Assembly (NCBI RefSeq): GCF_000376425.1
Contig: NZ_AQWL01000007.1
Span: 1-64,000, forward strand
DNA: 64,000 nucleotides
Reading direction: 5' to 3'
DNA from: Thiobacillus denitrificans DSM 12475
Lineage (GTDB): Bacteria > Pseudomonadota > Gammaproteobacteria > Burkholderiales > Thiobacillaceae
The notes below the pieces were generated by a model, which made no database searches, was not told where the DNA came from, and worked only from the letters and a program-made list of their open reading frames with translations. Both the position numbers and the translations under genes were made by a program. Shown in pieces: positions 10,242 through 63,704 of this stretch (positions within the stretch are counted from its first letter, which is position 1; every line of letters starts with the position of its first letter).

Positions 10242-10248
10242 GAGCGGT

Positions 10249-11989: not shown

Positions 11990-12005
11990 AAGGCGTGGTC
12001 CTGTT

Positions 12006-12455: not shown

Positions 12456-12482
12456 TCGGTGTGCGCTATCGTCCGGTAAGGT

Positions 12483-17157: not shown

Positions 17158-17400
17158 ATTGTTCCTGCCTCCGTCGTGCCGGCGTCATGGGCCGCCCGGT
17201 TTCCGCTTGCCGTGTTCATTCGTGTCGCTCCATGGGAGTGTCGCTATGTGACCGAATTATCGGCACTGCCGCCACTTTCAATCGGGGGAATAGAAGCCGG
17301 TTTCAGGCGCTTATCGGGCTTATGGCTTGCCGCCGGCCTGATAAGGTGGGCACGTGAAAAACCGCCTGTGCAGGCGGCTGGATGAATCAGGGAGGGCACG
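17158..17400. promoter_or_regulatory. Divergent fliF/fliE control region
   Basis: This 243-base gap must hold the promoters of both fliF (reverse) and fliE (forward). On the reverse strand an exact GCCGATAA, the -10 box of sigma-28 flagellar promoters, occurs at 17257-17264, but a TAAA-type -35 at the usual distance is not evident. A GC-rich hairpin (CCGCCTGTGCAGGCGG, about 17359-17374) lies just ahead of the fliE ribosome site GGGAGG. No convincing sigma-54 promoter was found, so assignments are tentative. Confidence 0.35.
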
Positions 17401-17745
17401 ATGAGCGTAGGCATGATCGATAGCGGCCGGATCGAAGCGATGGTGGCGCAGCTGAAGGCCGCGGCGGCACGCGCATCGCCCGCGGGCGAAAATCCGCTGC
17501 AAACCGACAAGACCGCGAATCAGGTCAATTTCCAGTCGGTCCTGAAATCATCGCTGGACCAGGTCAATACGGCCCAGCTGCAGTCGCAGCAGCTGGCCGA
17601 ACGGTTCGCCATGGGTGACAGCAACGTCAGTCTTTCCGACGCCATGATCTCCATGCAGAAATCCAGCATCGCCTTCCAGCAGACCGTGCAGGTGCGCAAC
17701 AAGCTGGTGTCCGCCTACCAGGAAATCATGAACATGGGCGTTTAA
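17401..17745 (+). CDS. fliE: Flagellar hook-basal body complex protein FliE
   Basis: FliE joins the MS ring to the rod. The 114 residues end with the family's conserved C-terminal block (VSLSDAMISMQKSSIAFQQTVQVRNKLVSAYQEIMNMGV), preceded by QVNFQSVLKSSLDQVNTAQLQSQQLAERF. GGGAGG precedes the ATG by 5 bases. In many species fliE is the first gene of the fliEFGHIJ operon; here it stands alone on the opposite strand, divergent from fliF and convergent with cheV. Confidence 0.96.
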   Translation: MSVGMIDSGRIEAMVAQLKAAAARASPAGENPLQTDKTANQVNFQSVLKSSLDQVNTAQLQSQQLAERFAMGDSNVSLSDAMISMQKSSIAFQQTVQVRNKLVSAYQEIMNMGV

Positions 17746-17772
17746 GGCAGAGCGCCCCCGCGGGGCAGGGGC

Positions 17773-17870
17773 TTCAAGATTCAAGATTCAAGTTACAAGA
17801 TTTGGGCGAGGCATGCAGCCGCATGCTTCGCCCACATTACTTGCAACTTGCAACTTGCAACTTGCAACTT
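17773..17870. repeat. Heptamer-based inverted repeat between fliE and cheV
   Basis: Left arm: four 7-base units of the TTCAAGA/TACAAGA type. Right arm: four or more ACTTGCA units in the opposite sense. Between them is an inner stem of 13-14 pairs with one mismatch (GGGCGAGGCATGC against GCATGCTTCGCCC) around AGCC. The two genes on either side converge, so a bidirectional terminator role is plausible. The right edge touches the cheV stop codon. It is related to the repeats at 6271-6318 and about 27623-27696. Confidence 0.75.
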
Positions 17871-18829
17871 CAATGCACTTTAGCCAGCGCGTGCCGCAGC
17901 GCGTCGGCCAGGTCTTCGGCGACGAACTTGGCCACGTAGGCGTCGGCGCCGACTTTCTTGACGTGCGCTTCGTTGGTCGAACCGGTCAGCGACGAGTGGA
18001 TCACCACGGGAATGGAGCTGAAGCGCGGATCCTGCTTGATGTTGCGGGTCAGGGTAAAGCCGTCCATCTCGGGCATTTCCAGGTCGGTCAGCACCAGGGC
18101 GATCCGGTCATGCACGGTCTTGCCCTCGTCCTGTGCCTTGGCGGAGATGGCCTGCAGCTGGTCCCAGGCTTCCTTGCCGGTCTTGCACATGAGGTAGGGC
18201 AGGCCCATCGCTTCCAGCCCCTGTTCGATCATGGTGCGCGCGATCACCGAATCGTCCGCCGCCAGGATGACGGTACCGGGCTTGATGTCCACCGCAGGGC
18301 CGATATTGGCGGGGTCGACCGCCGGCTCGCTCGACGGCATGGCCTGGCGCAGGATGGTCTCCACGTCCAGCACCTGCGCCAGGCGGTCGCTGTTGTCGCC
18401 GTCGAGGCGGGCGAGACTGGTGACCATCCCGCCGGCGGCATTGCCCTCGGCGGACAGCACCTGCCGCCAGTCGAGACGCACGATGTCTTCCACCGATTCG
18501 ACGGCAAAGGCCTGGGTGCTGCGGGCATATTCGGTAATCAGCAGGATATTCAACCCGGTCCGCGGGGTGCATCCGGCAATCGCCGGCAAATTGATGACCG
18601 GGATGATCTGGCCGCGCAGATCGACCACGCCCATCATGTGGGCAGGCGATCCCGCAACGGCCGTGATGGCCGGCATCGGGATGATTTCCCTTATCTTGAA
18701 TACATTGATGCCGAACAGCTCGCTGCGATCGAGGTTCGCATCGTCGCCCAGGCGAAACAGCAGCAGCTCCAGCTTGTTGGAGCTGGTCAGATTGGTTCTT
18801 TCGTCAATTTCCTGCTGGATCGTTTGCAT
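17870..18829 (-). CDS. cheV: Chemotaxis coupling/response regulator protein CheV
   Basis: CheV couples receptors to CheA and carries a phosphorylatable receiver. The 319 residues comprise a CheW-like domain (LELLLFRLGDDANLDRSELFGINVFKIREIIPMP ... GVVDLRGQIIPVINLPAIAG) and a receiver domain (VILAADDSVIARTMIEQGL ... IALVLTDLEMPEMDGFTL). The ATG at 18829 has GGAG 8 bases upstream; a further ATG at 18850 lies ahead of that ribosome site and is less likely. It stands apart from the che run at 2.5-6.3 kb and beside the ycgR-type gene. Confidence 0.95.
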   Translation of the reverse strand: MQTIQQEIDERTNLTSSNKLELLLFRLGDDANLDRSELFGINVFKIREIIPMPAITAVAGSPAHMMGVVDLRGQIIPVINLPAIAGCTPRTGLNILLITEYARSTQAFAVESVEDIVRLDWRQVLSAEGNAAGGMVTSLARLDGDNSDRLAQVLDVETILRQAMPSSEPAVDPANIGPAVDIKPGTVILAADDSVIARTMIEQGLEAMGLPYLMCKTGKEAWDQLQAISAKAQDEGKTVHDRIALVLTDLEMPEMDGFTLTRNIKQDPRFSSIPVVIHSSLTGSTNEAHVKKVGADAYVAKFVAEDLADALRHALAKVH

Positions 18830-18867
18830 GGCGGAGTCTCCTTGAATCATTCATGTGGGGTGGCGCG

Positions 18868-19644
18868 CTACAGGCTGTTTCGCCGTGCACGCTCGATATC
18901 CATGACAAAGCGCTGCAGCCTGGCGGCCATGTCGTTGGGCAAATCCAGAAATCGGCAACCCAGGCGGGTCTGGGTGACGCCGTTTTGCAGGCGGATCTGT
19001 GCCGCATTGCGGACTTCCAGCGAGGTGACGACGGTGACGGCTTCGGGCAGCAGCAGGCGGCAGTCGGGCAGCGTTCTGCCGGTGTCGCAGCCGAGGCGCC
19101 CGCTGTTTTCGGCGATCGCCACGCCGCCGCAGCTGATGTCCACGATGCAGGTTGTGATCGGCTCCGCGGTCGCGTCCGGCTGGGACGGAACGATGCATCT
19201 GACCGGGTTGGCAATGGGCATGGCCACCCGGAAATGCTCCCGGCGCTGCAGACGAACCAGCGATGGAGGGATGGCAATGCACAGGGCCGGCAGGTTTTCG
19301 TATGCGCACGCAGCAACCGGGCCGCTGGAGAACGAGATGGAGACGCCATCGAGCTGGGTGATGAACTCCGCGCCCGTGCCGGACATCAGTTCCTGGTTGA
19401 GCGCGTCGCCGCGGGCGCTGTCCAGAATCAGCAGGTTGCGCGCCGCGTCGACCGCGAGCACCGAGGTGACGACGATCTGCCGGCTGCGCGGCAGATCGAG
19501 GTTGACCAGCAGCTTGCGTTTATGGATCGCGCGCAGCAGGAAAAGAATCTCCGCGCGCGAGTGGACGGCGTAAGGCGCCAGTGCATTGGCGCGATCGGGA
19601 TGGGTCAGGTCGTGTTGCGAGGGTTGCGAGACTGGAAAAGACAT
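18868..19644 (-). CDS. Flagellar brake protein, YcgR family (YcgR-N plus PilZ)
   Basis: The protein binds cyclic di-GMP and slows or reorients the flagellar motor in characterised relatives. The 258 residues contain an N-terminal YcgR domain (IHKRKLLVNLDLPRSRQIVVTSVLAVDAARNLLILD) and a C-terminal PilZ domain with the c-di-GMP-binding RxxxR region (RLQRREHFRV) and DxSxxG motif (DISCGG). It lies between cheV and late flagellar genes, and a GGDEF cyclase lies nearby at 25.9 kb, which fits a local c-di-GMP control point. No transmembrane segment is seen. Confidence 0.9.
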   Translation of the reverse strand: MSFPVSQPSQHDLTHPDRANALAPYAVHSRAEILFLLRAIHKRKLLVNLDLPRSRQIVVTSVLAVDAARNLLILDSARGDALNQELMSGTGAEFITQLDGVSISFSSGPVAACAYENLPALCIAIPPSLVRLQRREHFRVAMPIANPVRCIVPSQPDATAEPITTCIVDISCGGVAIAENSGRLGCDTGRTLPDCRLLLPEAVTVVTSLEVRNAAQIRLQNGVTQTRLGCRFLDLPNDMAARLQRFVMDIERARRNSL

Positions 19645-47333: not shown

Positions 47334-47409
47334 TGGCTCCCCGACCTGGGCTCGAACCAGGGACCTGCGGATTAACAGTCCGTCGCTCTACCGACTGAGC
47401 TATCGGGGA
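47334..47409 (-). tRNA. tRNA-Asn (anticodon GTT)
   Basis: A complete cloverleaf on the reverse strand: acceptor stem TCCCCGA/TCGGGGA, D-arm GCTCAGTCGGTAGAGC, anticodon loop CTGTTAA (GTT, Asn), T-arm with GGTTCGAGCC, discriminator G and encoded CCA. 76 bases including CCA. Followed by a terminator and flanked by rearranged DNA on its 3' side. Confidence 0.97.
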
Positions 47410-53375: not shown

Positions 53376-53422
53376 CTAAAGTACTTTTCGTATGCATGGG
53401 TAACAAAGCCGAAAGCCAATAG
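53372..53422 (+). pseudogene. 5' stump of low-molecular-weight tyrosine phosphatase gene (left of element)
   Basis: ATG ACT AAA GTA CTT TTC GTA TGC ATG GGT AAC encodes [11 protein letters not shown], the N-terminus and P-loop start of the phosphatase whose intact copy lies at 63207-63704 (MATKVLFVCMGN). After AAC the frame continues for five foreign codons and stops at TAG. The ATG overlaps the uvrB stop (ATGA). This is the original start of the gene, cut off by the integrated element. Confidence 0.85.
53393..53403. other. Left attachment site (attL core)
   Basis: TGCATGGGTAA, identical to 63231-63241. It covers the codons for Cys-Met-Gly-Asn of the phosphatase P-loop. Confidence 0.75.
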
Positions 53423-53442
53423 GCACGCCATCTACAGGAGAT

Positions 53443-53499
53443 CCGTTATCGTTACCGTTATCGGTAAATTTTCCGGATTTAATATCTGTCACGTTATCG
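53443..53499. repeat. Left-end GTTATCG repeats (candidate integrase arm sites)
   Basis: CCGTTATCG occurs at 53443-53451 and 53455-53463, and ACGTTATCG at 53491-53499. The same nonamer, and variants, occur at the other end of the element (63111-63143). Such repeated short sites next to att cores are the usual arm-binding sites of tyrosine integrases. Confidence 0.55.
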
Positions 53500-53517
53500 A
53501 TTTATTTTCCCGCCAAC

Positions 53518-53549
53518 AAACAGCCCGGCGCGAAGGCCGGGCTGTTTTT
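53518..53549. terminator. Rho-independent terminator at left end of the element
   Basis: A 12-base perfect stem (AAACAGCCCGGC / GCCGGGCTGTTT) around GCGAAG, followed by five T on the + strand. On the reverse strand it follows the stop of the 53565-53843 gene, so it may end transcription from both sides. Confidence 0.75.
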
Positions 53550-53564
53550 GGTGGGCGCGTGTTT

Positions 53565-53843
53565 TCAGGACTGCTGCGGACTATTCCGGCGGAGCAATTC
53601 CGCCGTCAGGTCGGCGATCTCTTCAGCAGTTGCCTTGCAGGCCCAAAAGTAATTTGCCAGGGAGCCAGAGACACAGTCCAGCCTGGACTCACCCGCGACG
53701 GATAGCATCGCATTTAGCTGCGACTGCTTCGCGCTTAACTGGTCCTCCAGATCGAGCACGGTAGCGGACGGCGCGAACTGATAGACGCCAAGCGTCGCCG
53801 TGAATCGAAGTGCCGGGGATTGAGGGATAATTGATGCACCCAT
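53565..53843 (-). CDS. Small hypothetical protein of the element
   Basis: A 92-residue protein with a good ribosome site (AAAGGAA ahead of ATG 53843). It has a helical pattern in the middle (LDLEDQLSAKQSQLNAMLSVAGESRL) and C-terminus (CKATAEEIADLTAELLRR), two cysteines and no recognised motif. It is the last gene on the left side of the element, followed by a terminator. It stands apart from the next gene by 400 bases, so it probably has its own promoter. Function unknown. Confidence 0.65.
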   Translation of the reverse strand: MGASIIPQSPALRFTATLGVYQFAPSATVLDLEDQLSAKQSQLNAMLSVAGESRLDCVSGSLANYFWACKATAEEIADLTAELLRRNSPQQS

Positions 53844-54068
53844 GATCGTTTCCTTTGTAAACGGTTGTGGTAGGGGTGGCCTCGCGCTTCAACGCTTGGT
53901 CGCCCCGCTTTTTATCCAACAGAGTGTTGGACATCTCCAGCATACGCCTATTTTTTCGCCAATTGCAACGTTCGCGCCCCCCGCTGGCGCACGTTGACAG
54001 TCAAGACCCGCCAGAATCAACGCTACAGCCCTTTCTCGGGCCGGCCTATATCCTCGCCTATCCGCGCA

Positions 54069-54093
54069 TAAAAAAACCCGCCGTAGAGGCGGG
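54069..54093 (-). terminator. Rho-independent terminator of the main leftward transcript
   Basis: On the reverse strand a CCCGCC/GGCGGG stem (54077-54093) around a five-base loop is followed by a run of seven T. It lies about 155 bases beyond the stop of the HEAAH-protein gene and would end the long leftward operon of the element. Confidence 0.75.
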
Positions 54094-54144
54094 CGGGCGG
54101 TGCGTGAGGCCTCAACGGCAGCGCGCGGCAAGGGGAGAGAACAG

Positions 54145-54170
54145 ACATGGTGGAAAATTTTCCACCATGT
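54145..54170. repeat. 26-bp perfect palindrome
   Basis: A perfectly self-complementary sequence (half-site ACATGGTGGAAAA followed by its complement) with no spacer, between the last gene of the main operon and its terminator. It could be an operator, a hairpin in the transcript, or a recombination/replication site; nothing in the sequence decides. Confidence 0.8.
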
Positions 54171-54247
54171 TCCGACGACGGCAAAGCCCGCGACAAAGCC
54201 GGCGAGCGCCCGCAGCGCCGGCGTTCACGGCCACGCTCGCTAAAAGA

Positions 54248-54877
54248 TCATTTTCCATTTTCAAAATCTCCGGTGGTTGAGGGGGTTCTTGATTCGCGCA
54301 CCCATGCGCCCGAATTCGTCCAGGTGCCAGTCGCGCGCAGCTCGGCGGCGATGCTTTCAACATCTGCCCAGGCAGCGGTAAGCAAATGGCGGGCCATGCG
54401 CTGCACGAACGTCATAGCAAGCCGCTGGTCGGTGGCGGCCAAGATGGCGCGGGCTTGCTGGTGATCGGGGTCATGGATGCGCAGCTCGCCGCCAAGCCGG
54501 ATGCCGGCGGCGATCAGCTCGGCTTGCCTGCCAGCCACCAGCATGACGGCGTAATTCAGCGCAGCATCGGCTGACGGCAGACCCGGCCAGACAAGCGGCG
54601 CGGCCTGCCGGTAACTGTCAGCAACGTCTTCCGGCGGCCGCAGCGTGGCGGGGGTGGTGACGGTCTCGCCCACGGCGGACAGCACGCCGGCCTGTCCGGA
54701 TGCGCCGTCGGCGGCGATGCGCGCGCCGTACACGGGCATCCCCAGGGCCAGGCCAACAACAACATGCGCAGCCTCGTGCACGGCTATATCGCCGGCGCCC
54801 ATCAGGGGCCATGCCTGAGTGCCGAAAATGACGCGCTGCAGGTAGCGGGGCGGTGGCGGTTCGATGGTAGGGGTCAT
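54248..54877 (-). CDS. Element-encoded protein with HEAAH metalloprotease-like motif
   Basis: A 209-residue protein (ATG 54877; GGAA upstream; an ATG four codons earlier and a long open extension are less likely). It contains HEAAHVVVGLALGMPVYGA, an HExxH zinc-protease motif, then DAALNYAVMLVAGRQAELIAAG, a layout like the FtsH-type (M41) peptidase domain, where a later acidic residue supplies the third zinc ligand. There is no AAA domain and no transmembrane helix. Small M41-like proteins occur in some prophages. Activity is inferred. Confidence 0.7.
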   Translation of the reverse strand: MTPTIEPPPPRYLQRVIFGTQAWPLMGAGDIAVHEAAHVVVGLALGMPVYGARIAADGASGQAGVLSAVGETVTTPATLRPPEDVADSYRQAAPLVWPGLPSADAALNYAVMLVAGRQAELIAAGIRLGGELRIHDPDHQQARAILAATDQRLAMTFVQRMARHLLTAAWADVESIAAELRATGTWTNSGAWVRESRTPSTTGDFENGK

Positions 54878-55061
54878 CTTGTATTCCATGTTTTGGGGTG
54901 CGCCGTATACCCGGTTTTCATGCGGGGAGGATGCGGGTCCAGGCGATTTCAGCCGTCGCCTGCCTGCCGTGCCCATAATCTGGGAGGTCTTGCCGCTTGG
55001 GCTATGGGTCGGCTCTCTCGCCCAAGCGGCATCATGCACGGCGCAAGCGCCGTAGATTCGG

Positions 55062-55562
55062 TCAGGTTTTCCGGGTTGGCATCTTCCAACCCGACTGCGG
55101 GGACGTGATCTCATCGCTGGCGCGGTCCAGGCCTGGACTCGGCAACGGGTCGATGCGCACGTCGCCTTCCGGCTCGATGTGGCTTGGCGGGGTTATCAGG
55201 TAGTGCCGCAACAGGTGCTCGGGCGGGATTGCGGGCAATCCTGCAAAGCGCTGGAATGCAGCCAACTGAACCAGCATCGGCACGCACTCGGCTACGACTC
55301 GTGCTTCGTGCTCGGCAGCCCGCTGGCGCCAGAAAGCGCGGCGGGCAACCTCCGCCTCATCCCAGGCGATACCGGCGGCGCGGTCTGCCTCGATTGCCGC
55401 CTGGCGAGTGCGGGTGATATCGCTGGGGCAATCACCCTCACGGGCTGCGGCGAGCGCGTCCAGTGCCCGATTCAGCACGGTCTCGGCGTTCTTGTACGCT
55501 TTCGCTGCGCCGGCATACGCGCGCGCCAGCCCGCCAAGTTCATTGGGGTCTCGGCCGAACAT
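55062..55562 (-). CDS. Hypothetical helical protein of the element
   Basis: A 166-residue protein starting MFGRDPNELGGLARAYAGAAKAYKNAETVLNRALDALAAAREG: strongly helical, alanine-rich N-terminal half (likely coiled coil), then WDEAEVARRAFWRQRAAEHEARVVAECVPMLVQLAAFQRFAGLPAIPPEHLLRHYL. It begins 2 bases after the capsid-like gene, so the two are co-translated. No recognised domain. A structural or accessory role beside the capsid-like gene is a guess. Confidence 0.7.
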   Translation of the reverse strand: MFGRDPNELGGLARAYAGAAKAYKNAETVLNRALDALAAAREGDCPSDITRTRQAAIEADRAAGIAWDEAEVARRAFWRQRAAEHEARVVAECVPMLVQLAAFQRFAGLPAIPPEHLLRHYLITPPSHIEPEGDVRIDPLPSPGLDRASDEITSPQSGWKMPTRKT

Positions 55563-55564
55563 GG

Positions 55565-56593
55565 TTACGCGCCTCCCTTGATCGCGGTACGGCTCAGGGG
55601 CACAACAGCGGCGTTTGCGCGCACGGCGATCAGCGTGCCGTCGCGTCCAAGATCGTCGCGGCCGGCGTCGATCGACACGGGGGACTTCGATCCGGCCAGG
55701 CGCAACAGGCCAACGACGGGGGCGAATTCGGGATTCGGCAGCAGGTACCAGCGCCCGTTGGGCAGCCGGGACGATGCCACGACCTCCAGGTCAAGCCCGG
55801 CTTCGTGCACCAGGCGGCGGGCGTGCAACTCAAGCGCACCTTCGACGACCAGCACGGCGGGGTCATGGTCAAGCACCTCGCCGAAGGGGTCGGGCATAGC
55901 GCGCAGCATCCGCATCGCCTCGCCAAGCGCCACATCGCCGAAAACGGATGCCAGGACGTTTCCATGGCCAGCATCGAACATGGCTTCGCCGTCCGACAGA
56001 ACCAAATTTGATTCGATCAGCGTGTACGCCAACTTGGCTTCAACCCGCGCGGCGGCGGTGCCGAAGTTTTCAAACGTGGCCATGATCAAACCGATATCGT
56101 CATTGAGTAGCACGCGGCGCGATATCAAAACGTTGCGGCCATACCGGCCCAGCCCAGCGAGCGCGCCCGCCTCATCGCTCACCATCGCTTCCGGGGCTTC
56201 GGAACTCTCGCCCAGAAACTCAAGATCGCCGCCGACAGCAAGCATCGGAAACCGCTGCGGCTTATAGTCGGCAACCGGCATCAGTTTGCAAAAAGCCTCA
56301 TGCCGCATGTGGGCGGCCATGCGGGCCTGCGTCACGGTGCGCACGGCATCAGCCAATGCGTTTCCAAAATCTGGCGTGGCGAATCCGGAACCTTTCACCC
56401 GGACGGCCGCGCCCGCGCCTCGGCGCGAGTCTGCCAAGTCAGAACAGAATTTTGCCAGCGCCGGCAGCAACGGCTCGGCGCTCACGGCGACGGCTGCGGC
56501 TTGCGGGTGGCAGATAGGCGCGTTCGGATTCAGGGCGCCTGCGCGGATCAGAACGGCGTCGCGGTGGGCCTGAATGAAATCGGTCGGGGTCAT
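55565..56593 (-). CDS. Phage major capsid-like protein (Mu-type prohead protease/major capsid family, capsid part)
   Basis: A 342-residue protein whose C-terminal two thirds follow the capsid portion of the prohead-protease/major-capsid fusion family: FGNALADAVRTVTQARMAAHMRHEAFCKLMPVADYKPQRFPML, then LGRYGRNVLISRRVLLNDDIGLI, AAARVEAKLAYTLIESNLVLSDGEAMFDAGHGN (compare the family's DG-ALFHA-HGN), and a conserved end with PAVLVVEGALELHARRL. No protease domain is visible, so the capsid part stands alone. It is the only structural phage gene seen in the element. Recognition is from family pattern, not a search. Confidence 0.72.
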   Translation of the reverse strand: MTPTDFIQAHRDAVLIRAGALNPNAPICHPQAAAVAVSAEPLLPALAKFCSDLADSRRGAGAAVRVKGSGFATPDFGNALADAVRTVTQARMAAHMRHEAFCKLMPVADYKPQRFPMLAVGGDLEFLGESSEAPEAMVSDEAGALAGLGRYGRNVLISRRVLLNDDIGLIMATFENFGTAAARVEAKLAYTLIESNLVLSDGEAMFDAGHGNVLASVFGDVALGEAMRMLRAMPDPFGEVLDHDPAVLVVEGALELHARRLVHEAGLDLEVVASSRLPNGRWYLLPNPEFAPVVGLLRLAGSKSPVSIDAGRDDLGRDGTLIAVRANAAVVPLSRTAIKGGA

Positions 56594-56626
56594 TTCGTTT
56601 TCCTTTCGTGGTTGGTAGCGCCATCG

Positions 56627-57076
56627 TCAACTGTCCGCCTGGACAAACAAAGCAGCTTCTTGTCCAGGGTCGCGCTCGATGATGCGGTACAGATTCTTTT
56701 TGGAGCTGGTGGTGGGGGCGCCCGTCAGCGCGGCGGCCAGCAACCGATGCTCGACGTCATCGAACCCGCTCACGTCGCCGGTGCGCCAGTACCGTGTCAG
56801 CTTGCCGACGGTGAACCGCTGCAAACGCGCGGCCAGTTCGCCAGCCAGATCGTTGTCTGACATCACCCGCCCGGCACGCAGGGCTTCGGCAGCGGCCCGC
56901 AACTCGACATTGCGCTGGCGCATCCGCCCGGCGTGGTCCAGGTCAAACGCAGCTTCCAGGTCTCGACCGTGCCGACGATGTCCACGGAAAGCCTGGCATA
57001 CCCACGCCCAGAGTTCCGCATCGGGTTGGCAGCCGTCAGCGAGCGCATCGGCCTTCTCGAAAGCATTGCGGGTCAT
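56627..57076 (-). CDS. Hypothetical protein of the element
   Basis: A 149-residue, mostly helical, charged protein (RNVELRAAAEALRAGRVMSDNDLAGELAARLQRFTVGKLTRYWRTGDVSGFDDVEHRLLAAALTGAP). Its ATG overlaps the end of the Nu1-like gene upstream (ATGA at 57073-57076). The pattern ending in SSKKNLYRIIERD looks like a nucleic-acid-binding or packaging accessory protein, but I do not recognise a family. It lies between the Nu1-like gene and the capsid-like gene. Confidence 0.7.
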   Translation of the reverse strand: MTRNAFEKADALADGCQPDAELWAWVCQAFRGHRRHGRDLEAAFDLDHAGRMRQRNVELRAAAEALRAGRVMSDNDLAGELAARLQRFTVGKLTRYWRTGDVSGFDDVEHRLLAAALTGAPTTSSKKNLYRIIERDPGQEAALFVQADS

Positions 57077-57804
57077 TCGCCCCGCTCCCCGGCCGTGTCC
57101 GATAATTCGCGCCAGGCCGATGCCGCCTCTGCATCCAGCGCGGCATCCAGTTCGGCATCCAGCGCGGCCATTTCAGCGGCGACTGCGGGATCCAGTTTCA
57201 GATCGGCCAACCAGCCATCAGGGGCGACTTCGGGATAGAGCTGCGCGTCGGCGGCATCGTCCGCGTCCAGCTCAAGGCGGGTCAGGATTGCCGGCCAGTC
57301 GGCGGTCGGGGCGGCGCGCAGTTCGTCGGCGGCGTCGACAAGCAGGGTCTTCCAGATTGCTGCGGCACGCTCGGCGGAAGCGATCCATTCGTCCCGGCCC
57401 GCGACGCTAGCCAGCGCATCACGCAACGCGGCCTCGGCTGCGGTGGCGCGGTCTTCAGCGATAGCCAGGTTGTCGCGCAAGTCCTGAACTTCACCGACGG
57501 CTTGCCGTAGCCAGCGGGCGCGCAGGCGGCCAGGGTCGCAGCGGCGCAGCAACTGGCCGATGGCGACGGTGGGGTCGAGCCGGCCATCGGCGCCCAGGCA
57601 TACCCAGCCGTCCTTCAGCCACCTCGACACAGATTGTTTCGACACCCCGAGAGCGCGTGCGAACTGCGCCGGGAGAATCCGAACCTTCAGCAATTCAGGC
57701 GCATCCGGCAGGCCGGAGAGTGACTGCTGGCCGGCACCAGGCGGCGGCGCGTCCGGATTCGGGGCCGGTGTAACGTGGTCAGGTGCATTGTTCCCTATGC
57801 GCAC
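57073..57804 (-). CDS. HTH protein resembling phage terminase small subunit (Nu1-like)
   Basis: A 243-residue protein from GTG 57804 (GTG 57813 also possible; AGGG lies upstream). Residues about 40-75 contain an MerR/Nu1-like winged helix (LPAQFARALGVSKQSVSRWLKDGWVCLGADGRLDPTVAIGQLLRRCD), followed by a helical region (LRDNLAIAEDRATAAEAALRDALASVAGRDEWIASAERAAAIWKTLLVD) and an acidic C-terminus. The order HTH then coiled region then acidic tail is like Nu1-type small terminases; a DNA-binding regulator is the alternative. No large terminase is present. Confidence 0.65.
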   Translation of the reverse strand: MRIGNNAPDHVTPAPNPDAPPPGAGQQSLSGLPDAPELLKVRILPAQFARALGVSKQSVSRWLKDGWVCLGADGRLDPTVAIGQLLRRCDPGRLRARWLRQAVGEVQDLRDNLAIAEDRATAAEAALRDALASVAGRDEWIASAERAAAIWKTLLVDAADELRAAPTADWPAILTRLELDADDAADAQLYPEVAPDGWLADLKLDPAVAAEMAALDAELDAALDAEAASAWRELSDTAGERGE

Positions 57805-58385
57805 GGTGCACACCCTAGCGCAACCGCGAGCCCGAACAGACCCGCCTGAGTTGAGGATAGGGAGAACCTTTTTGGTGTCGGATCGATACTACACGTGAGG
57901 TAGACCATGCCGGCCGCTGCCTCAGCGGCGGCGCGGGTCAGGCCGCCGTCGTACTCCATGATGGCGGCGCGTTCGACCATGGCTTCCAGCTTGTCGGCGG
58001 GAAACACGGGAAACAGCGGGAAACAGGGGTGTTTCCCGAGAAAATCGCCCGCAAACCCGCATGGATACTCACTCTCTCTCTCTTGGGAAACAAAGGAAAC
58101 AGCATTAACCCTCTTTCCGGGTTCGGCGCGGTTTATACCGGAAGCCGGGGGCGCGGGGGTCGGGGTGTCATCGGTGGAAAAATTCAGGTGTAAATCACAC
58201 GCGCACCCGCCCCCCCCTCCAAAACCTGTTTCCCGTGTTTCCCGGTGGGTAAAATCGCCAGGAATCCCGCATGGATAAAGGGTTTCAGCGGGAAACATGG
58301 GTGTTTCCCGAAGGGGTTTTGAGGGTTTCCCATGTTTCCCGGCGATGGTGTCGGCAGCGGTCAGGATGGCGTCGAGGTCAAGCAT
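57795..58385 (-). CDS. Hypothetical protein overlapping the iteron cluster
   Basis: A 196-residue frame (ATG 58385) whose C-terminal part, EAMVERAAIMEYDGGLTRAAAEAAAG, is a motif common at the end of phage replication proteins. The N-terminal part has two copies of a YPCG-x2-GDF segment and FPLFPVFPA-type repeats that result from the DNA iterons beneath. Its start overlaps the end of the DUF927 gene. The coding status of the repeat-rich first half is uncertain. It may be a replication accessory protein whose gene carries the origin. Confidence 0.6.
   Translation of the reverse strand: MLDLDAILTAADTIAGKHGKPSKPLRETPMFPAETLYPCGIPGDFTHRETRETGFGGGGGCACDLHLNFSTDDTPTPAPPASGINRAEPGKRVNAVSFVSQERESEYPCGFAGDFLGKHPCFPLFPVFPADKLEAMVERAAIMEYDGGLTRAAAEAAAGMVYLTCSIDPTPKRFSLSSTQAGLFGLAVALGCAPCA
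57999..58340. repeat. GGGAAAC iteron cluster (candidate replication origin)
   Basis: Eleven exact copies of GGGAAAC or its complement: starts at 57999, 58008, 58018, 58085 and 58290 in one sense, and 58031, 58228, 58237, 58303, 58325 and 58334 in the other, plus a one-mismatch copy at 58094. Neighbouring copies are mostly spaced 9-10 bases. A 27-base direct repeat (58041-58067 and 58251-58277) frames the cluster. It adjoins the DUF927 helicase-like gene, as iterons adjoin the replication protein gene in phage P4-type satellites. Confidence 0.75.
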
Positions 58386-60285
58386 CGGTGGCCGCCTCTC
58401 CGGCGCATTGCGCCACGTCGAGCAGGTCGAACACGCCTATCTCAGTCACATAGCACTGACGGCGCCCCATGCCGCCTGGCAGCTTTTCACGGCGGTACGG
58501 GCGCACTTCCGTCTTGCCGGCGCGCACCCAATTACCCGGCTGAAGCATCTTCTTGTCGAGCAGCACTTGCCCGGCGCGCGCTGGATCCATGCCCCTGAAT
58601 ATTTCCTTCCAGCCCTCCGGGGTGATGTAGAACCGCTGGTCGTCGCGGAAGCCAACTGTTTGATCCTTGCCCGGCGCATGGGTGTCGTCGGCGCGGCTCG
58701 TGTGTATGAATCGGCCTGACCAGCCCTTCCCGATGAAGTCGCGGAAGCGTTCATAAATTCGCCGCTCTTCGAGGTTTTCAGAACCGCCCCGATGGTTGAT
58801 CCACGCTTGCACGCATTTCAGGATACCGGCGGTAGACTCGCCGGGTTCCCATCCGGTCAGGCCCCACTTGGTCGCATATTCGCCGGCCACAGCCAGCAGG
58901 GCGAAGCGGCGCACGGCGCGCTTGACCTGACTCTCTGAATCGTCCGGCATCAGTTTGAGCGCCACGCTGGCCACCTCGCCGGGCAGATCGCGGCGGATTT
59001 CGTCCAGGTGTTGCGAGACGTGTTCCAGCCAGGCGATGCCGACGGCGCCGTGGTACTGGTCGCAGGCGGTGCGCAGGTTTTCCGCAAAGGCGCGGGCATC
59101 CTTGTGGTCGTGCAGCTTTTCAAACAGCCCGCGCCCGGCGCCGGCATCGGCCGGGATGTCCAGTTGACGGACTTCCATTCCAGGATCCGGCTTGAGACCG
59201 GCCGCCTCCATGTAATGCGTCAGCCCATGCTCGCCGGTAGACAGCCAAAGCAGCAGCCAGGCCAGGCGCTCACGCAGAACGGCGGTGTCTTTCATCCGGC
59301 CCTTGCCGCTGCCGCCTGACAGCATCATGACGATCAGGCCGATTTCCTTTTCAATGGCCTCGCGTATTTCGTCGAGGCACAGCAGCCGATGGTTGTGTTT
59401 GGCCGCCGTGCCTTCGAGTGCATTGCCCGTGTTGCGCCAGGTCTGCATGTACGACGCGGGCAAACCGTTGAGCGAACTGGCGACGCGAAGCGCCGTGGTT
59501 TTGCCCAGGCTCGATGCCCCGAACAGGTGGAACCCGCCCGATTCACCGATGCCGGAAAAGGGCAGGATTGAAGCCGCCAGTGCCGCACACACGCTCAGGG
59601 TCAGCCTGGAATTGCCAGCACACAAACGCCCGACGTACTCACGCCATTCATCCGCCGTTCCAGATTCGCCGCTCGCCGCGGTTCGATCCTGCCCTTGATA
59701 AATGACAGGCTCGGGCGCCGTGCCGATGGTGCTGTGCGGCATCACAAAGACGTTACCGAACCATCCGGTCGTTTCAACGCCACGGGCGCGTGCGGCATCG
59801 TCGCTGTTCATCAGCAGAAATTGCGCCAACTCGCCGCGCCGCTTGGGGTGAATGCGCAGGCCTGCATCGGCCATGGCTTTGTGCCAAGCGCCGTCCTGCG
59901 CGCCGATTGCAGAATCCAGCAGCGTGACTTCCCGAACATTGCCGTCCCGGTCGCTAATCTCGACGATGAACCGCCAGCCCAGCCCGTCGAATCCACGTAT
60001 CCGCCACTTCACCAGAATTGGCGCGCAGACCCACACAGCCGGCAGATAGACCGTGCCCTCCTTGGTTGAACGGCTGGCGATGTACCAAAGGCCTTGCTTA
60101 TCGTGAATGAATCCGGCTTCCTTCGTTGGGTCAGCCTTGGCCGTCGCTGGTGCGGCCTCTGGCGTGTTTTTTTCTGCGGGTGCGGGGGTAGGCTTGGGCT
60201 TGGCTTTTTTACCGCGCTGGCGGCCTTTCTCGAAAGCCTTGTGTTCTGGCATGGCGGCCGGGGTCGATTCGATTTCATCGGTCAT
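58378..60285 (-). CDS. DUF927-domain helicase/primase-like replication protein
   Basis: A 635-residue protein (ATG 60285 with GGAGG upstream). After a Lys/Pro/Ala-rich linker (about 25-55) comes a DUF927 domain with WRFIVEISDRDGNVREVTLLDSAI and a P-loop GASSLGKTT (256-264), then LLCLDEIREAIEKEIGLIVMMLSGGSGKGRM, probably Walker B and sensor. The C-terminal part has a winged-helix look (FRDFIGKGWSGRFIHTS). DUF927 proteins are found in prophages and satellites as replication helicases. The end overlaps the iteron-region gene. It would load at the nearby iterons. Confidence 0.82.
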   Translation of the reverse strand: MTDEIESTPAAMPEHKAFEKGRQRGKKAKPKPTPAPAEKNTPEAAPATAKADPTKEAGFIHDKQGLWYIASRSTKEGTVYLPAVWVCAPILVKWRIRGFDGLGWRFIVEISDRDGNVREVTLLDSAIGAQDGAWHKAMADAGLRIHPKRRGELAQFLLMNSDDAARARGVETTGWFGNVFVMPHSTIGTAPEPVIYQGQDRTAASGESGTADEWREYVGRLCAGNSRLTLSVCAALAASILPFSGIGESGGFHLFGASSLGKTTALRVASSLNGLPASYMQTWRNTGNALEGTAAKHNHRLLCLDEIREAIEKEIGLIVMMLSGGSGKGRMKDTAVLRERLAWLLLWLSTGEHGLTHYMEAAGLKPDPGMEVRQLDIPADAGAGRGLFEKLHDHKDARAFAENLRTACDQYHGAVGIAWLEHVSQHLDEIRRDLPGEVASVALKLMPDDSESQVKRAVRRFALLAVAGEYATKWGLTGWEPGESTAGILKCVQAWINHRGGSENLEERRIYERFRDFIGKGWSGRFIHTSRADDTHAPGKDQTVGFRDDQRFYITPEGWKEIFRGMDPARAGQVLLDKKMLQPGNWVRAGKTEVRPYRREKLPGGMGRRQCYVTEIGVFDLLDVAQCAGEAATDA

Positions 60286-60646
60286 TGCTGGCCCTCCGCA
60301 CGTACATGGCGACAAGGCCATGGTCGAGACCGGCGGCCGCCTGGTCGAGGTCAATCACGGCGATGCTGGTCGGGTCGGAGTCCATCACGGCGAGAATGAT
60401 TTCGTACAGCCAGGTATCGACCGGACTCAGTTCAGCCAGGCGGCAGAATATGGCGACAGACAGGCCCGCGACAAAACAAAAGTCCAGGTCTGCCGGCTCG
60501 ATTGAAGGCGGCGCAATGACGTAGGCGCCCGCCACGGTCAACCCCCAGTCGGGGAGAACCGATACATGCCCGAACGGCCCCGGCACGGGAATGCGGCCGC
60601 GTCGCCTCAGGTCGAACAGCGCGCGGGCGTTAGGCGGCAGGCGCAT
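60275..60646 (-). CDS. Hypothetical protein of the element
   Basis: A 123-residue protein (ATG 60646): LPPNARALFDLRRRGRIPVPGPFGHVSVLPDWGLTVAGAYVIAPPSIEPADLDFCFVAGLSVAIFCRLAELSPVDTWLYEIILAVMDSDPTSIAVIDLDQAAAGLDHG. The first half resembles small phage proteins that precede the replication gene; I do not recognise a domain. It overlaps both neighbours (DUF927 gene start and zinc-ribbon gene end), so it is translated as part of the operon. Confidence 0.7.
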   Translation of the reverse strand: MRLPPNARALFDLRRRGRIPVPGPFGHVSVLPDWGLTVAGAYVIAPPSIEPADLDFCFVAGLSVAIFCRLAELSPVDTWLYEIILAVMDSDPTSIAVIDLDQAAAGLDHGLVAMYVRRASNDR

Positions 60647-60881
60647 GGTCGCTGGCCTCAAGGTAGGCTGCAAACGCTTGCTCGGCGGCGTCCCGCGCGG
60701 CGGGGTCGGTGCCGGTCAGCGCGGCCTCGCACTGGTCGCAGACATACCACTTTGTCCAGGTCAGGTGCGGTGTAACGGCGATCATGTCAAACCCATACCG
60801 CTGGTGGGTGACTTCGCCTCCGCAACACGGGCAGACCATCGCCACGCGGGTTTTCTGAGGTGCTTCGTTTGGGCGGCTCAC
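60630..60881 (-). CDS. Small zinc-ribbon-like protein of the element
   Basis: An 83-residue protein (GTG 60881) with two cysteine pairs, CPCCGGEVTHQRYGFDM and CDQCEAALTG, spaced about 30 residues apart as in a zinc ribbon. The rest is charged and helical. The start GTG overlaps the stop of the 55-residue gene upstream. Likely a DNA- or protein-binding accessory; no specific family recognised. Confidence 0.7.
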   Translation of the reverse strand: MSRPNEAPQKTRVAMVCPCCGGEVTHQRYGFDMIAVTPHLTWTKWYVCDQCEAALTGTDPAARDAAEQAFAAYLEASDHAPAA

Positions 60882-61045
60882 GATGCGCCCCCAGCCAGCC
60901 GCAAGGCCAACAGAAAGACCATAGCAACGCCGGCGCCAGACGTGATGCTGGCCGCTACCAGATATCCGGCAAGACGTGTAATATGTGAATCGAAGTGTTT
61001 TACCAAGCCCGCCTGCCAGCGGGCTTTTTCTCGTTTCGGGGTCAT
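60878..61045 (-). CDS. 55-residue small membrane protein of the element
   Basis: ATG at 61045 overlaps the stop of the AlpA-like gene (ATGA), and its TGA (60878-60880) overlaps the GTG of the zinc-ribbon gene, so it is tightly coupled both ways. The product has a basic N-terminus (MTPKREKARWQAGLVKH) and one strong hydrophobic helix (LAGYLVAASITSGAGVAMVFLLALRLAG). A holin-like or membrane-anchoring role is possible, but nothing in the sequence proves it. Confidence 0.65.
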   Translation of the reverse strand: MTPKREKARWQAGLVKHFDSHITRLAGYLVAASITSGAGVAMVFLLALRLAGGAS

Positions 61046-61314
61046 AGCGGCCCCTTAGCGGTCGAGCGCTTGTTGCGTCGAGGAAAGTATGGCGCTGCGC
61101 TTGCGGCTTGATTCAGCCATTCCACGGCATCCGCTGTGCGGATGTAGCGGCGGCGCCCCAGCATAAAGAACTTCGGCGCCGGGGCATCTCGGGCAACCTG
61201 TTCGGCGGTGGACTTTGGCAGGCCAAGAATGCCATCCCAGAACTCGTCCCAACTTAGGACGGGTTTCGCCATGAGCTGCGCAGGCAAGTTTGCTTCGGTG
61301 GTTTCGGTGTTCAT
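61042..61314 (-). CDS. AlpA/excisionase-like DNA-binding protein
   Basis: A 90-residue protein (ATG 61314, AAAGGAG upstream) reading WDGILGLPKSTAEQVARDAPAPKFFMLGRRRYIRTADAVEWLNQ. This is the MerR-like winged HTH layout of AlpA regulators/excisionases (LPKST helix turn, GRRRYIRTADAVEWL wing and second helix). It is the first gene of the main leftward operon and lies beside the regulatory gap at 61315-61409. In related satellites AlpA/Xis-type proteins control integrase and excision. Confidence 0.75.
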   Translation of the reverse strand: MNTETTEANLPAQLMAKPVLSWDEFWDGILGLPKSTAEQVARDAPAPKFFMLGRRRYIRTADAVEWLNQAASAAPYFPRRNKRSTAKGPL

Positions 61315-61409
61315 CGGTCAGGCTCCTTTCAAAAGCTGACCAAACAATATCACCTGTAAGTTATTGGTATTTAAGGATAAAGTACCTTAACGTTACGTGC
61401 CGGTACGTT
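61315..61409. promoter_or_regulatory. Probable promoter region of the main leftward operon
   Basis: An AT-rich gap ahead of the AlpA-like gene. It holds several near-palindromes (an ACGTGCCGGTACGT-like one at about 61394-61408; an AACGTTACGT at its side) that could be operators. No promoter boxes stand out clearly. Confidence 0.45.
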
Positions 61410-62066
61410 TCATTTTTCGCGGCTGTTCCATATGTTTCTGACCGTGGTCTCGGGCATATCGAACTCGGAAGCCACGATTTTCCTTATCCCCCGCACTTTT
61501 CCTGCCGCCAGTTCCGCGTAGCGCTCGATAACCCTTTCGTGGTCGACTCGCGCCGCATAGGCCAAGGCGTCACGCGTGTCTCTCATGGCCCAGGTTTGGT
61601 TCTTCTTTTTGTCGATGTCGGCCAGTTGATCGTCATACATGAGTGGGGAGCAAGCGCGTGCTATGAATTCAAACCATCGGTGATGCACGCCCCCCGCAAT
61701 CAGGGCGGCCTCGGCCATATCCATTGGGGTGGACTCGGCAAGCCGTTGTACGGCGCATTCCACCGCATCCTTGAAACGATCAAGCGCCCTAATCTCCGTG
61801 TCTTGCCCCCTGGTTCTTCTGGCGCGCTCACTTCTAGACATTTTTTCAAACTGGTTTTGAGAAAGCCGTGTCTCTTCCTTTGCGATCAACTCCAACACGT
61901 CGCGCAAAGCATCGGACACGGGTTTGGTCCTCGCTTCGTGTTCACATCTCGGGTAAGGGCCGCCAACGCCTTCCAGGAAGTTGCAGATATCGTCGGCCAT
62001 TGCCGTGTCGTATAGCCGTAAAAGCTTGAGGCCGCCAAGCTTGTAAATTTGTGCTGGCTTTTTCAT
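61410..62066 (-). CDS. Hypothetical protein with C-terminal helix-turn-helix, next to integrase
   Basis: A 218-residue protein. The ATG overlaps the integrase stop (ATGA at 62063-62066), so the two are coupled. The middle is helical (IRALDRFKDAVECAVQRLAEST; MAEAALIAGGVHHRWFEFIARAC), and the C-terminus GKVRGIRKIVASEFDMPETTVRNIWNSREK has helix-turn-helix character. It could be a directionality or repressor protein; no family recognised. Confidence 0.7.
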   Translation of the reverse strand: MKKPAQIYKLGGLKLLRLYDTAMADDICNFLEGVGGPYPRCEHEARTKPVSDALRDVLELIAKEETRLSQNQFEKMSRSERARRTRGQDTEIRALDRFKDAVECAVQRLAESTPMDMAEAALIAGGVHHRWFEFIARACSPLMYDDQLADIDKKKNQTWAMRDTRDALAYAARVDHERVIERYAELAAGKVRGIRKIVASEFDMPETTVRNIWNSREK

Positions 62067-63109
62067 CGCGCCTCCAGGATATGCAGCACTTCACTCGCCC
62101 AGCGGATAGCGGCCTCCTGGCGCTCGGCTTCGTAGGCGTGTCGGTTGTATATCGCCAGCACTCCACCGAGCGAATGATTCAGGCACTTCTCGATAACGTG
62201 GGTAGCGATGCCCAGGCCGGCCAGACGGGTGGCAAAGGTGCGGCGTAGGTCGTGCGGTGTCCACGTCAATTTTGCGGTGTGCTTCAGCCTGTGTTGTACG
62301 GATGTGTTGCTGCGCTGTGCGAACAGGTAGCCGTCGTGGTCGCCAGTGAGTGCACGCGCCAGGGGTGGCAGGTAAACCCAATGTGGCCGGCTGCTTTTGT
62401 TCTCAGGAATATGCAGAATGTCGCCGTTAATGTTTTCGTGAGTTGCAGACTGCGCTTCGGATATTCTCAGGCCGGTCAGTAGCAGGAATTTCAGCAGGGG
62501 CGCATGGCCGTGCGGGTCATTCCAAAGCGCCTTGATTTCGTCGTCGGTCAGTACGCGGTCGCGTGTTTTTTCATCGCCACCAGCAACGGCGGACGTTGAG
62601 TTTTCCAGTGGGCTGCGCTCGATGTAACCGCGCTCGACTGCATACCTTAGTGCCAGCTTCCAGTTGGACAGGCAGCGATTCGCAGCAACGGGCGCGGCGG
62701 CGGCATACTCGACCAGAATGTCGGTCAGTCGTTTGGTGGTGAGTTGGGAGAGCGGGGTGCTGCCAGCCTCGGCCTTTCCCCTGGTGACGTAGACTTCGAT
62801 GTTTTTTGTCACCTTGTAACGCGGCTCGATTCGGCGCTGGAACCATTCGTCCAGCAGCGCGCCAAAGGTGACGGATTCAGGCAGGACGGTTTTTGACAGT
62901 GCAGCGGACTTGTTGCGTGCCTCGGCAAGGCTGACGGCAGGCCATTCCCCCAGGTTGCGGGTTTTCCATGATCCACCCTTGCGGCTTCGGTATAGCCAGC
63001 TTCGGCGCCCGCTGGGGTAGCATCGCAGGTACAAGCCGCGTTCGTCGCCAATGAGTTTTTCCTTGGCCGGATCTTTGAGTTTGCGGATGGTGGTTTCAGT
63101 GAGTGCCAT
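62063..63109 (-). CDS. int: Tyrosine-type site-specific integrase
   Basis: A 348-residue phage integrase (ATG 63109, MALTETTIRKLKDPAK, the DUF4102-type arm-binding start). The core-binding domain is at about 80-180; catalytic residues are R215 (LLTGLRISEAQ), H286 and R289 (TPHDLRRTFAT), H312 (KCLNHSLG) and Y321 (AIYNRHAY). It lies 120 bases from the right attachment repeat. Its start region carries the GTTATCG repeats, so it may be autoregulated by arm-site binding. The gene continues into the HTH protein with an ATGA overlap. Confidence 0.93.
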   Translation of the reverse strand: MALTETTIRKLKDPAKEKLIGDERGLYLRCYPSGRRSWLYRSRKGGSWKTRNLGEWPAVSLAEARNKSAALSKTVLPESVTFGALLDEWFQRRIEPRYKVTKNIEVYVTRGKAEAGSTPLSQLTTKRLTDILVEYAAAAPVAANRCLSNWKLALRYAVERGYIERSPLENSTSAVAGGDEKTRDRVLTDDEIKALWNDPHGHAPLLKFLLLTGLRISEAQSATHENINGDILHIPENKSSRPHWVYLPPLARALTGDHDGYLFAQRSNTSVQHRLKHTAKLTWTPHDLRRTFATRLAGLGIATHVIEKCLNHSLGGVLAIYNRHAYEAERQEAAIRWASEVLHILEAR

Positions 63110-63110
63110 G

Positions 63111-63143
63111 GCGTTATCCGTTATCACTCCGTTATCGATAACG
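63111..63143. repeat. Right-end GTTATCG repeats (candidate integrase arm sites)
   Basis: GCGTTATCC (63111-63119), CCGTTATCA (63118-63126) and CCGTTATCG (63129-63137), the last part of a CGTTATCGATAACG palindrome. They match the repeats at 53443-53499 at the other end of the element and lie just upstream of the integrase start. Confidence 0.6.
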
Positions 63144-63206
63144 ACAGTTTAACTGATATTTGCCTAAACTCAACTGGTGTTAATTCAATGAATAATAAGG
63201 GTTTGT

Positions 63207-63704
63207 ATGGCTACCAAGGTTTTATTTGTCTGCATGGGTAATATCTGCCGGTCACCGATGGCGGAAGGCATGTTCCGCAAGGCCATCCAGGACGCCGGAC
63301 TGAACCGGGATGTAGAGGCGGATTCCGCCGGCACCCACGCCTACCATATCGGTTCGGCGCCCGATCCGCGCGCGCGGCAGGCGGTGCGGCAACGCGGGGT
63401 GGACATCAGTGGACTGCGTGGGCGCAAGGTGGCGGACGATGATTTCGAACGCTTCGACTACATCCTGGTCATGGACGGCGACAATTACAGCAGGATGATC
63501 CAGCGTGCACCGGCGCAATATCACGGCAAGATCCGGTTGCTGCTGTCGTTCAGCCGCAAGTATCCCAATCTCGACGTGGTCGATCCGTATTACGGCGGCG
63601 TACAGGGCTTTGAGGAAAACCTCGACATGATCGAAGACGCGGTACAAGGTCTGATCCGGGAAATCACCGGCGACAGCCAGGTTAAGATGCGTTCAGGCCG
63701 CTGA
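63207..63704 (+). CDS. Low-molecular-weight protein tyrosine phosphatase (5' end supplied by the element)
   Basis: A 165-residue phosphatase: P-loop C9-MGNIC-R15 with S16, general acid D126 in DPYYGG. It is full length for the family. The first 9-10 codons come from the element's right end and use different synonymous codons than the stump at 53372 (GCTACCAAGGTTTTATTTGTC versus ACTAAAGTACTTTTCGTA), while the protein is nearly unchanged (MATKVLFVCMGN versus [11 protein letters not shown]). It is thus probably functional, but now driven from sequence in the element instead of uvrB. Such enzymes control exopolysaccharide kinases or other phosphotyrosine targets. Confidence 0.95.
   Translation: MATKVLFVCMGNICRSPMAEGMFRKAIQDAGLNRDVEADSAGTHAYHIGSAPDPRARQAVRQRGVDISGLRGRKVADDDFERFDYILVMDGDNYSRMIQRAPAQYHGKIRLLLSFSRKYPNLDVVDPYYGGVQGFEENLDMIEDAVQGLIREITGDSQVKMRSGR
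63231..63241. other. Right attachment site (attR core)
   Basis: TGCATGGGTAA, identical to 53393-53403, inside the phosphatase P-loop codons for Cys-Met-Gly-Asn. Confidence 0.75.

Follow-up and report, generated by a model that had tools for sequence, protein, structure and literature searches.

What does a single capsid gene do in an integrated element of less than 10 kb that carries no other recognizable head or packaging genes apart from a putative terminase small subunit (TerS)? The question arises in Thiobacillus denitrificans DSM 12475, in the first 64,000 nucleotides of contig NZ_AQWL01000007.1 (hereafter "the window"), from a genome (G000) of 38 contigs given as 100% complete. An earlier note on this DNA had described an overlapping, one-strand array of integrase, AlpA-like, DUF927, Nu1-like helix-turn-helix (HTH) and capsid-like genes with iterons. 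Open reading frames (ORFs) and family searches, covering all 14 genes with PHROGs (threshold E 0.01) and 12 of 14 with Pfam (60630-60881 and 60878-61045 left out), bear out this array, with all 14 genes on the minus strand and the named genes overlapping or abutting. The range named in that note was slightly too short, as the integrase gene lies just past its end at 62066 and the whole element spans approximately 53393-63241. We conclude that the element is probably a phage satellite of the Gram-negative phage-inducible chromosomal island (PICI) type, whose lone major capsid protein (MCP) would make or redirect small heads. Its features are listed here, with lengths in amino acids (aa) and with L numbers for the related elements described below:

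53393..53403, no strand: attL core TGCATGGGTAA, an 11-bp repeat shared with 63231; similarity to the relatives' empty sites stops here
53565..53843, minus: ORF for a hypothetical protein of 92 aa; best family matches E 0.085 or weaker
54248..54886, minus: HEAAH/HEAGH-motif (HExxH) protein of about 212 aa, with a zinc-peptidase-like motif
55062..55562, minus: cc166, the module protein directly after the MCP, found in six elements
55565..56593, minus: stand-alone HK97/Mu-gpT-type MCP, 342 aa (Phage_capsid_4, E 2e-22)
56627..57076, minus: o149, a module protein with distant relatives in other satellite-like elements
57073..57813, minus: Nu1-like HTH protein, putative TerS (PHROG 57, E 1.3e-5)
57999..58340, no strand: cluster of ten GGGAAACA iterons, a probable replication origin on the 3' side of the primase gene
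58378..60354, minus: DUF927 primase/helicase-type replication protein (Pfam DUF927, E 2e-61; PHROG DNA primase, E 1.4e-64)
60275..60673, minus: hypothetical protein, 84% identical in L013 and 93% in L042
60630..60881, minus: small zinc-ribbon-like protein, weakly Lar-like (TIGR03655, E 0.005, below the cut-off)
60878..61045, minus: small protein with relatives in L012 and L042
61042..61314, minus: small HTH protein in the AlpA position (HTH_17, E 0.045, under the cut-off)
61410..62066, minus: hypothetical protein of 218 aa, with no Pfam or PHROGs family match of note
62063..63127, minus: tyrosine integrase (Phage_integrase, E 1.1e-15; Arm-DNA-bind_3, E 2.3e-14)
63231..63241, no strand: attR core TGCATGGGTAA, the second copy of the 11-bp repeat

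Measured from repeat to repeat, the element is 9,838 bp long and splits a host gene, a remnant of whose 5' end lies on the attL side and the rest beyond attR. From their sequences, we take this target to be a low-molecular-weight phosphotyrosine phosphatase gene and the left flank gene to be uvrB. The left flank, searched for in 57 genomes of the genus, matched at 46 places in 44 of them, from which 12 loci were obtained; one was the window itself (L049), one was left unaligned (L059), and all ten aligned congeneric sites are unbroken, leading from the left flank straight into the phosphatase gene. Similarity to these empty sites stops at the core on the left edge (two bases further in L056) and starts 6 or 18 bases ahead of the core on the right edge, because the first codons supplied by the element resemble those of the host. 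These codons include a start codon at 63207 in frame with the phosphatase gene, and the element thus gives this gene a new start.

The product of 55565-56593, previously labelled capsid-like, was confirmed as such by profile search. Residues 61-335 match Phage_capsid_4 (Pfam E 2e-22), with a further match to Mu-like_gpT (Pfam E 3e-4), and two PHROG protease-MCP families are matched through their MCP halves alone (E 4.5e-34 and 1.2e-26); the protease domain seen in phage relatives is missing from the satellite MCP. A sequence search of the PDB returned three weak matches, all three capsid proteins (best E 0.018). Within 118 genomes of the family, MCP matches were found at nine places in seven genomes: five stand-alone satellite MCPs (the window copy and one more in G000, two in G104 and one in G081), three in ORFs of 737-809 aa (fusions), and one in G055 (L014) that was rejected as spurious, none of the genes called at that place being capsid-like. 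Across 399 genomes of the order, 18 places in 16 genomes matched, four belonging to this satellite family (two in G000, one each in G081 and G432) and ten of the other 14 lying in ORFs of 656-817 aa. Several of the genomes searched are incomplete; for G432, with a completeness of 87% and a contamination of 6%, it is therefore uncertain whether the 11 kb satellite contig really comes from a family other than that of Thiobacillus. In a tree that kept 23 of 25 rows (L068 and L069 were dropped for not matching the profile; L032, the same gene as L007, and L033, a weak match, were not entered from the order search), the MCPs of the six satellites group together (100/100), and a branch of 1.5 changes per column separates this clade from the 17 other MCP domains; the capsid gene was therefore probably not captured recently. 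No phage carrying this clade was found among the tree-entered matches from the family and order genomes, and IMG/VR scans with the MCP and its alignment, which rest on few short peptide patterns, gave no relative. Ratios of nonsynonymous to synonymous substitution (dN/dS) of 0.17-0.27 in four pairs indicate purifying selection on the MCP.

The MCP searches recovered five further elements, whose genes were scanned with family libraries in part. All six (the window element, L001, L011, L012, L013 and L042) lie at different sites and share the gene order TerS-like HTH, o149, MCP, cc166 and HExxH protein. Their end repeats measure 46 bp in a tRNA-Asn gene (L001), 58 bp at tRNA-Val (L012), at least 60 bp at tRNA-Arg (L013), 14 bp at two different tRNA-Ser genes (L011 and L042) and 11 bp in the window, where a tRNA-Asn gene at 47334-47409, the gene in which L001 sits, appears unoccupied and has the same far-side neighbour gene as in L001. 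Repeat-to-repeat sizes are 10,239 (L001), 10,093 (L012), 10,724 (L013), 10,496 (L011), 10,024 (L042) and 9,838 bp (window), with a mean of 10,236 and a standard deviation of 325 bp. Three of these elements carry a tape measure gene of about 1.7 kb; sizes are 10,239-10,724 bp with this gene and 9,838-10,093 bp without it, and this constancy near 10 kb, across six elements, suggests a packaging limit. A seventh fragment, L043 (a 4.4 kb contig), encodes the HExxH protein and a tape measure protein, and the interval from its 176 aa gene to the HExxH gene holds no MCP. Taken together, the clean insertion, the five relatives with the same module, the sizes of about 10 kb and an MCP clade seen in no phage of the genomes searched uphold the view that this is a satellite and not a complete phage.

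The proteins that accompany the MCP are likewise constrained, with dN/dS over four pairs of 0.27-0.49 for the TerS-like protein, 0.27-0.57 for o149, 0.16-0.35 for cc166 and 0.25-0.38 for the HExxH protein. cc166 is possibly a scaffold or connector. By hhalign, o149 matches three proteins from other elements (probability 94.9, E 4.5e-8), and neither o149 nor cc166 matched the L043 proteins in profile comparisons. Copies of the HExxH protein in six other elements are 65-79% identical to that of the window, and its mean column identity over five elements is 78%, vs 61-67% for the other four module proteins, making it the least variable module protein across distant members. It falls in no named family: no match of note was found in Pfam, PHROGs or PADLOC, nor a sensible one in a PDB sequence search, and its motif bears a resemblance to M41. 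It was detected in five of the 118 family genomes and four of the 399 order genomes (with one weak partial match in each set), was absent from a plasmid collection, and had no relative in an IMG/VR alignment scan based on few short peptide patterns.

Which known kind of satellite does this gene set resemble? Gram-negative PICIs combine an integrase, AlpA and a primase whose gene is followed by the origin, and 21 of 29 reference PICIs are reported to contain a capsid gene (PMC10111431); DUF927 is among the Pfams pooled as primase in such work (PMC6092414, PMC10111431). The window element has its own integrase and a discrete attachment (att) site (Phage_integrase match, 11-bp repeat, ten of ten empty sites), genes in one direction, a primase with a predicted origin just 3' of it (DUF927 and the iterons at 57999-58340), a small, weakly AlpA-like HTH regulator in the AlpA position, and no complete set of phage structural and lytic genes. 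It thereby resembles EcCICFT073, PmCI172 and the HE-PICIs (PMC6092414, PMC10111431), although the earlier note knew of no match to its gene content, and likely belongs to the Gram-negative PICIs. Lone capsid genes are already known in that group, and the Thiobacillus set is a variant of these. Small heads have been seen with PmCI172. The Thiobacillus element differs in its host, the Gram-negative PICIs of 2018 all coming from Gammaproteobacteria (PMC6092414); in a capsid family other than PF03864 and PF05065, the capsid types named in PMC13230959; in the conserved o149, cc166 and HExxH genes and, in some elements, the tape measure gene; and in size (9.8-10.7 kb vs 10-20 kb). In a search of open-access literature, no listed paper dealt with Thiobacillus prophage satellites as judged by title.

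Kinship with capsid-encoding islands, as the earlier note had proposed, likely extends to the Gram-negative PICIs with a lone capsid gene and not to the capsid-forming PICIs, whose genes include a portal, a protease, connectors and both terminase subunits (PMC10690885). Among its 14 genes, PHROGs gave no match for a terminase large subunit, portal, phage-type prohead protease, tail or lysis gene, and only a TerS-like protein; judged by these genes, the element is not a capsid-forming PICI, even if both have their own capsid and some capsid-forming PICIs encode putative tape measure genes in one sampling (PMC12987554). The absence of tail genes, stated for this locus earlier, holds for the window element and fails for the family, in which three of six elements encode a tape measure protein. 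SaPIbov5 also has a capsid homologue, Ccm, which leads to satellite-sized capsids (PMC6092414), in a Gram-positive host. Like L001, L011 and L013, the Vibrio satellite PLE11 encodes a tape measure protein, which in PLE11 enters the virion and yields chimeric tails (PMC12987554). Unlike the Thiobacillus elements with their own MCP, PLE remodels the hijacked helper capsid (PMC10945586), and the PLE11 ruler is 95 residues off that of its helper, whereas Thiobacillus rulers are about as long as those of the nearest phages.

Around the conserved module, replication and integration genes vary. The window contains 12 copies of GGGAAACA against 1.15 expected (0 of 100 shuffles reached 12), ten of them in the cluster at 57999-58340, which is spanned by an ORF (57795-58385) that may not be a gene. 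Iterons also follow the primase gene in L042, with like repeats, and in L013, with other repeats. The DUF927 proteins of the window and L042 are 92% identical; L012 instead has Toprim and DUF3987, L013 an AAA_25 protein, and L011 another primase-type protein (PHROG 19930, E 1.2e-26), with a like gene in L001 by eye. The window integrase had no tblastn match in L001, L011, L012 or L013 at E 0.01, and the integrases of L011 and L042 are 87% identical. Sister regulators match HTH_17 in L013 (E 1.4e-11) and L012 (E 3.5e-6) and MerR in L011 (E 0.012), with no Pfam match in L001; PHROG 66, excisionase/regulator, is matched in L013 (E 6.7e-7) and L011 (E 1.2e-4). The window regulator is 22-25% identical to those of L011, L042, the satellite-like L116 and the phage L089.

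Two links tie this family to phages. The first is the tape measure protein, of 556-562 aa in L001, L011 and L013 (PHROG E 4.8e-29 to 3.7e-36) and with a like protein of 559 aa in L043, against 559-570 aa in the nearest phage relatives. An IMG/VR scan found 22 relatives, and in the resulting tree, which carried a long-branch warning (L068 and L069 among the long branches), the four satellite copies grouped in 0% of 200 bootstrap trees. That of L011 pairs with the phage sequence L067, part of L089 (support 91/94; 67% identity over the whole length), and one tape measure pair had a dN/dS of 0.27. L089, a 19.3 kb IMG/VR fragment in which no terminase gene was identified, encodes a lambda-type portal (E 4e-88), tail genes, a ClpP-Phage_capsid_4 fusion and a regulator 84% identical to that of L011 over 75 residues; it shares with the satellites the MCP domain family and, with the sisters, tape measure, regulator and motif (below), and is unlike them in its portal and tail genes and in the protease half of its MCP. 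A 35.8 kb virus record, G506, carries a Nu1-like TerS (E 8.6e-14), a GpA terminase, a lambda-type portal and a capsid of another Pfam family, PF05065. The host gene beside it, presumably gltX-like, is 91% identical to its counterpart in G104, which points to a prophage of Thiobacillus or close kin. The tape measure search in the 118 family genomes gave 36 places in 23 genomes, 12 of them ORFs of 987-1165 aa alike solely over the first 260-367 residues; many local prophages may therefore have longer rulers.

The second link is a 31-bp motif, AAATAGTCGCA-N4-CCCCTAA-N3-TGCAAC, traced from BLAST comparison of the elements with phage records. L089 has three copies, ending 45, 49 and 48 nt upstream of start codons (15 instead of 45 nt for the first if an upstream start is used), which belong, in order, to a small gene ahead of the portal gene, to the protease-MCP gene and to the tape measure gene; we take the small gene to be gpW-like. 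One exact copy lies 45 nt before the regulator of L011, another 63 nt before a different regulator in L013, and a degenerate copy precedes the regulator of L042, for which none of 500 approximate dinucleotide shuffles scored as high. With up to two mismatches, the inner 30 bases occur in two of the 118 family genomes, solely at the L011 and L013 satellites (a reversed control had no match), and their exact matches in IMG/VR are the three on the L089 contig. In our reading, phage structural genes would use the motif as a promoter or as an activator site, with a promoter role that we infer, and satellites would have taken it up as a helper sensor. A binding site of the AlpA-position regulator was also considered and rejected: the motif is absent from L116, which has this regulator (84% identical), and in L013 it accompanies a regulator with no BLAST relationship to this one. 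The sequence upstream of the window regulator occurs in no other locus and not in IMG/VR, the match L018 being the window itself.

By its sequence, the window element is integrated in the 5' end of the phosphatase gene and has an integrase, a primase-helicase gene followed by iterons, and a Nu1-like HTH protein together with a conserved capsid module whose MCP stands alone. In the mechanism that we propose, an incoming or induced helper phage would switch the element on, which would then excise and replicate. The TerS-like protein would steer the helper terminase onto satellite DNA, and the lone MCP, with o149 and cc166, would co-assemble with the helper capsid protein, or stand in for it, in small heads suited to about 10 kb, the helper supplying portal, protease, tail and lysis. 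Three sisters would additionally contribute a tape measure protein of their own to the tail. In three, a copy of the motif, in one case degenerate, stands ahead of the regulator gene, as it does ahead of structural genes in the phage. On the boldest reading, the lineage would build doubly chimeric virions, with an old head protein that is the satellite's own and, for some members, an own tail ruler exchanged with helpers, and would sense its helper via a copied structural-gene promoter element, a scheme that we advance tentatively and at somewhat less than even confidence. The small-head role of the lone MCP follows the precedents of the SaPIbov5 Ccm protein and of PmCI172, which has an MCP homologue and small heads and whose authors state that the homologue could be involved (PMC6092414).

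Several observations weigh against the proposed satellite mechanism or the assignments beneath it. In EcCICFT073, a counter-case to those precedents, deletion of the capsid gene left transfer unaffected (PMC6092414). The window element has no tape measure gene (14 genes against PHROGs) and the motif was found in neither the window nor L012, L001 or L116, so that both phage links come from sisters. Its regulator, labelled AlpA-like earlier, is indeed a small HTH protein in that position, with a weak AlpA identity: HTH_17 is under the cut-off (E 0.045), and PHROGs gave one unnamed family (E 0.011) and no PHROG 66 match. No iterons follow the primase gene in the tested stretches of L001, L011 and L012. 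The TerS assignment comes from one PHROG match, with no Pfam match above the cut-off, and the TerS profile matched none of eight virus records. Structure prediction, which had been proposed for the 55565-56593 product, gave models too poor to use for the MCP (six sequences, pLDDT 44.8) and the HExxH protein (seven sequences, pLDDT 52.8), neither with a fold match at E<0.001. A search for helper prophages by GpA terminase, Mu-type portal and HK97-type portal found none of these three families, and hence no resident helper of these types, in G000; among G000, G104, G081, G432 and G106, GpA occurs in one genome (G106, at two places), the Mu-type portal in one (G432) and the HK97-type portal in none. 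Finally, compared with the Gram-negative PICI feature of att sites never used by prophages, the tRNA-Val att site of L012 matches the prophage record G506 over 47 bp at 81%.

The closest competitor is that the MCP alone forms a small shell, with the helper giving only portal, protease and tail. The satellite MCPs are far diverged (the branch of 1.5) and 26-30% identical to the fusion MCP of L089, which would make mixing with helper subunits less easy, and o149 and cc166 travel with the MCP. Against it, neither a portal nor a phage-type protease was found among the 14 window genes or noticed in the partly scanned sisters, and such a shell would have to accept a helper portal foreign to it; we consider this account rather unlikely. 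Less probable still, in our view, is that the MCP acts as an anti-phage factor that poisons capsid assembly and is dispensable for transfer. The unaffected transfer of the EcCICFT073 mutant would fit this, as would L116 and the L043 fragment, relatives in which the MCP gene is missing, but the same deletion did not restore phage growth (PMC6092414), and sizes of about 10 kb fit a head-size limit better. Decay from a full prophage, which the earlier note had raised against itself and which the presence of genes of phage families might suggest, is highly improbable given the same module at six sites, open frames under purifying selection, end repeats, ten of ten empty sites, and no phage with this MCP clade among the tree-entered matches. 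HK97-fold proteins serve elsewhere as nanocompartments or other non-viral shells, and a domesticated shell of this kind on a mobile island is similarly far-fetched, given that a TerS-like protein, a primase and an integrase are linked to the MCP and that some sisters add a tail tape measure protein.

Other satellite-like elements were encountered in these searches. Besides an integrase 80% and a regulator 84% identical to those of L011, L116 (approximately 7157-16000; G063:C11) encodes a tape measure protein of 828 aa and a protein like o149, and no capsid gene was recognised in it. In two genomes of the same order, L044 (approximately 9749-19366; G380) and L046 (approximately 8641-16599; G172) carry a stand-alone Phage_capsid_4-like capsid gene preceded by two smaller genes, one of them o149-like, and their capsids form a separate clade (95/93); o149 thus resembles a family, without a name, that is common to otherwise different elements (window, L116, L044 and L046). 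The Mu-like L045 (6975-19935; G336; three genes scanned) has a transposition protein (PHROG 296), a stand-alone capsid gene and a tape measure gene. L115 (11724-19906, the same as L119 1724-9906; G081:C46) is a small Mu-type element with a MuA-like transposase, a MuB-like AAA protein, a late-activator-like protein, a Mu gpT capsid (Pfam E 4.1e-86) and a tape measure protein, in which six of eight called genes scanned included no terminase or portal and clean ends were not found; it may be either a satellite that transposes or a deletion derivative.

Overall, PICI-like satellites with lone capsid genes now extend to Thiobacillus, where, among six sister elements, one capsid module has been kept while tail ruler and replication parts were exchanged. 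Standing before phage structural genes and before satellite regulators, the 31-bp motif offers a testable candidate answer to what was left open in 2018 for the Gram-negative PICI of PMC6092414, namely the phage signal that induces it.

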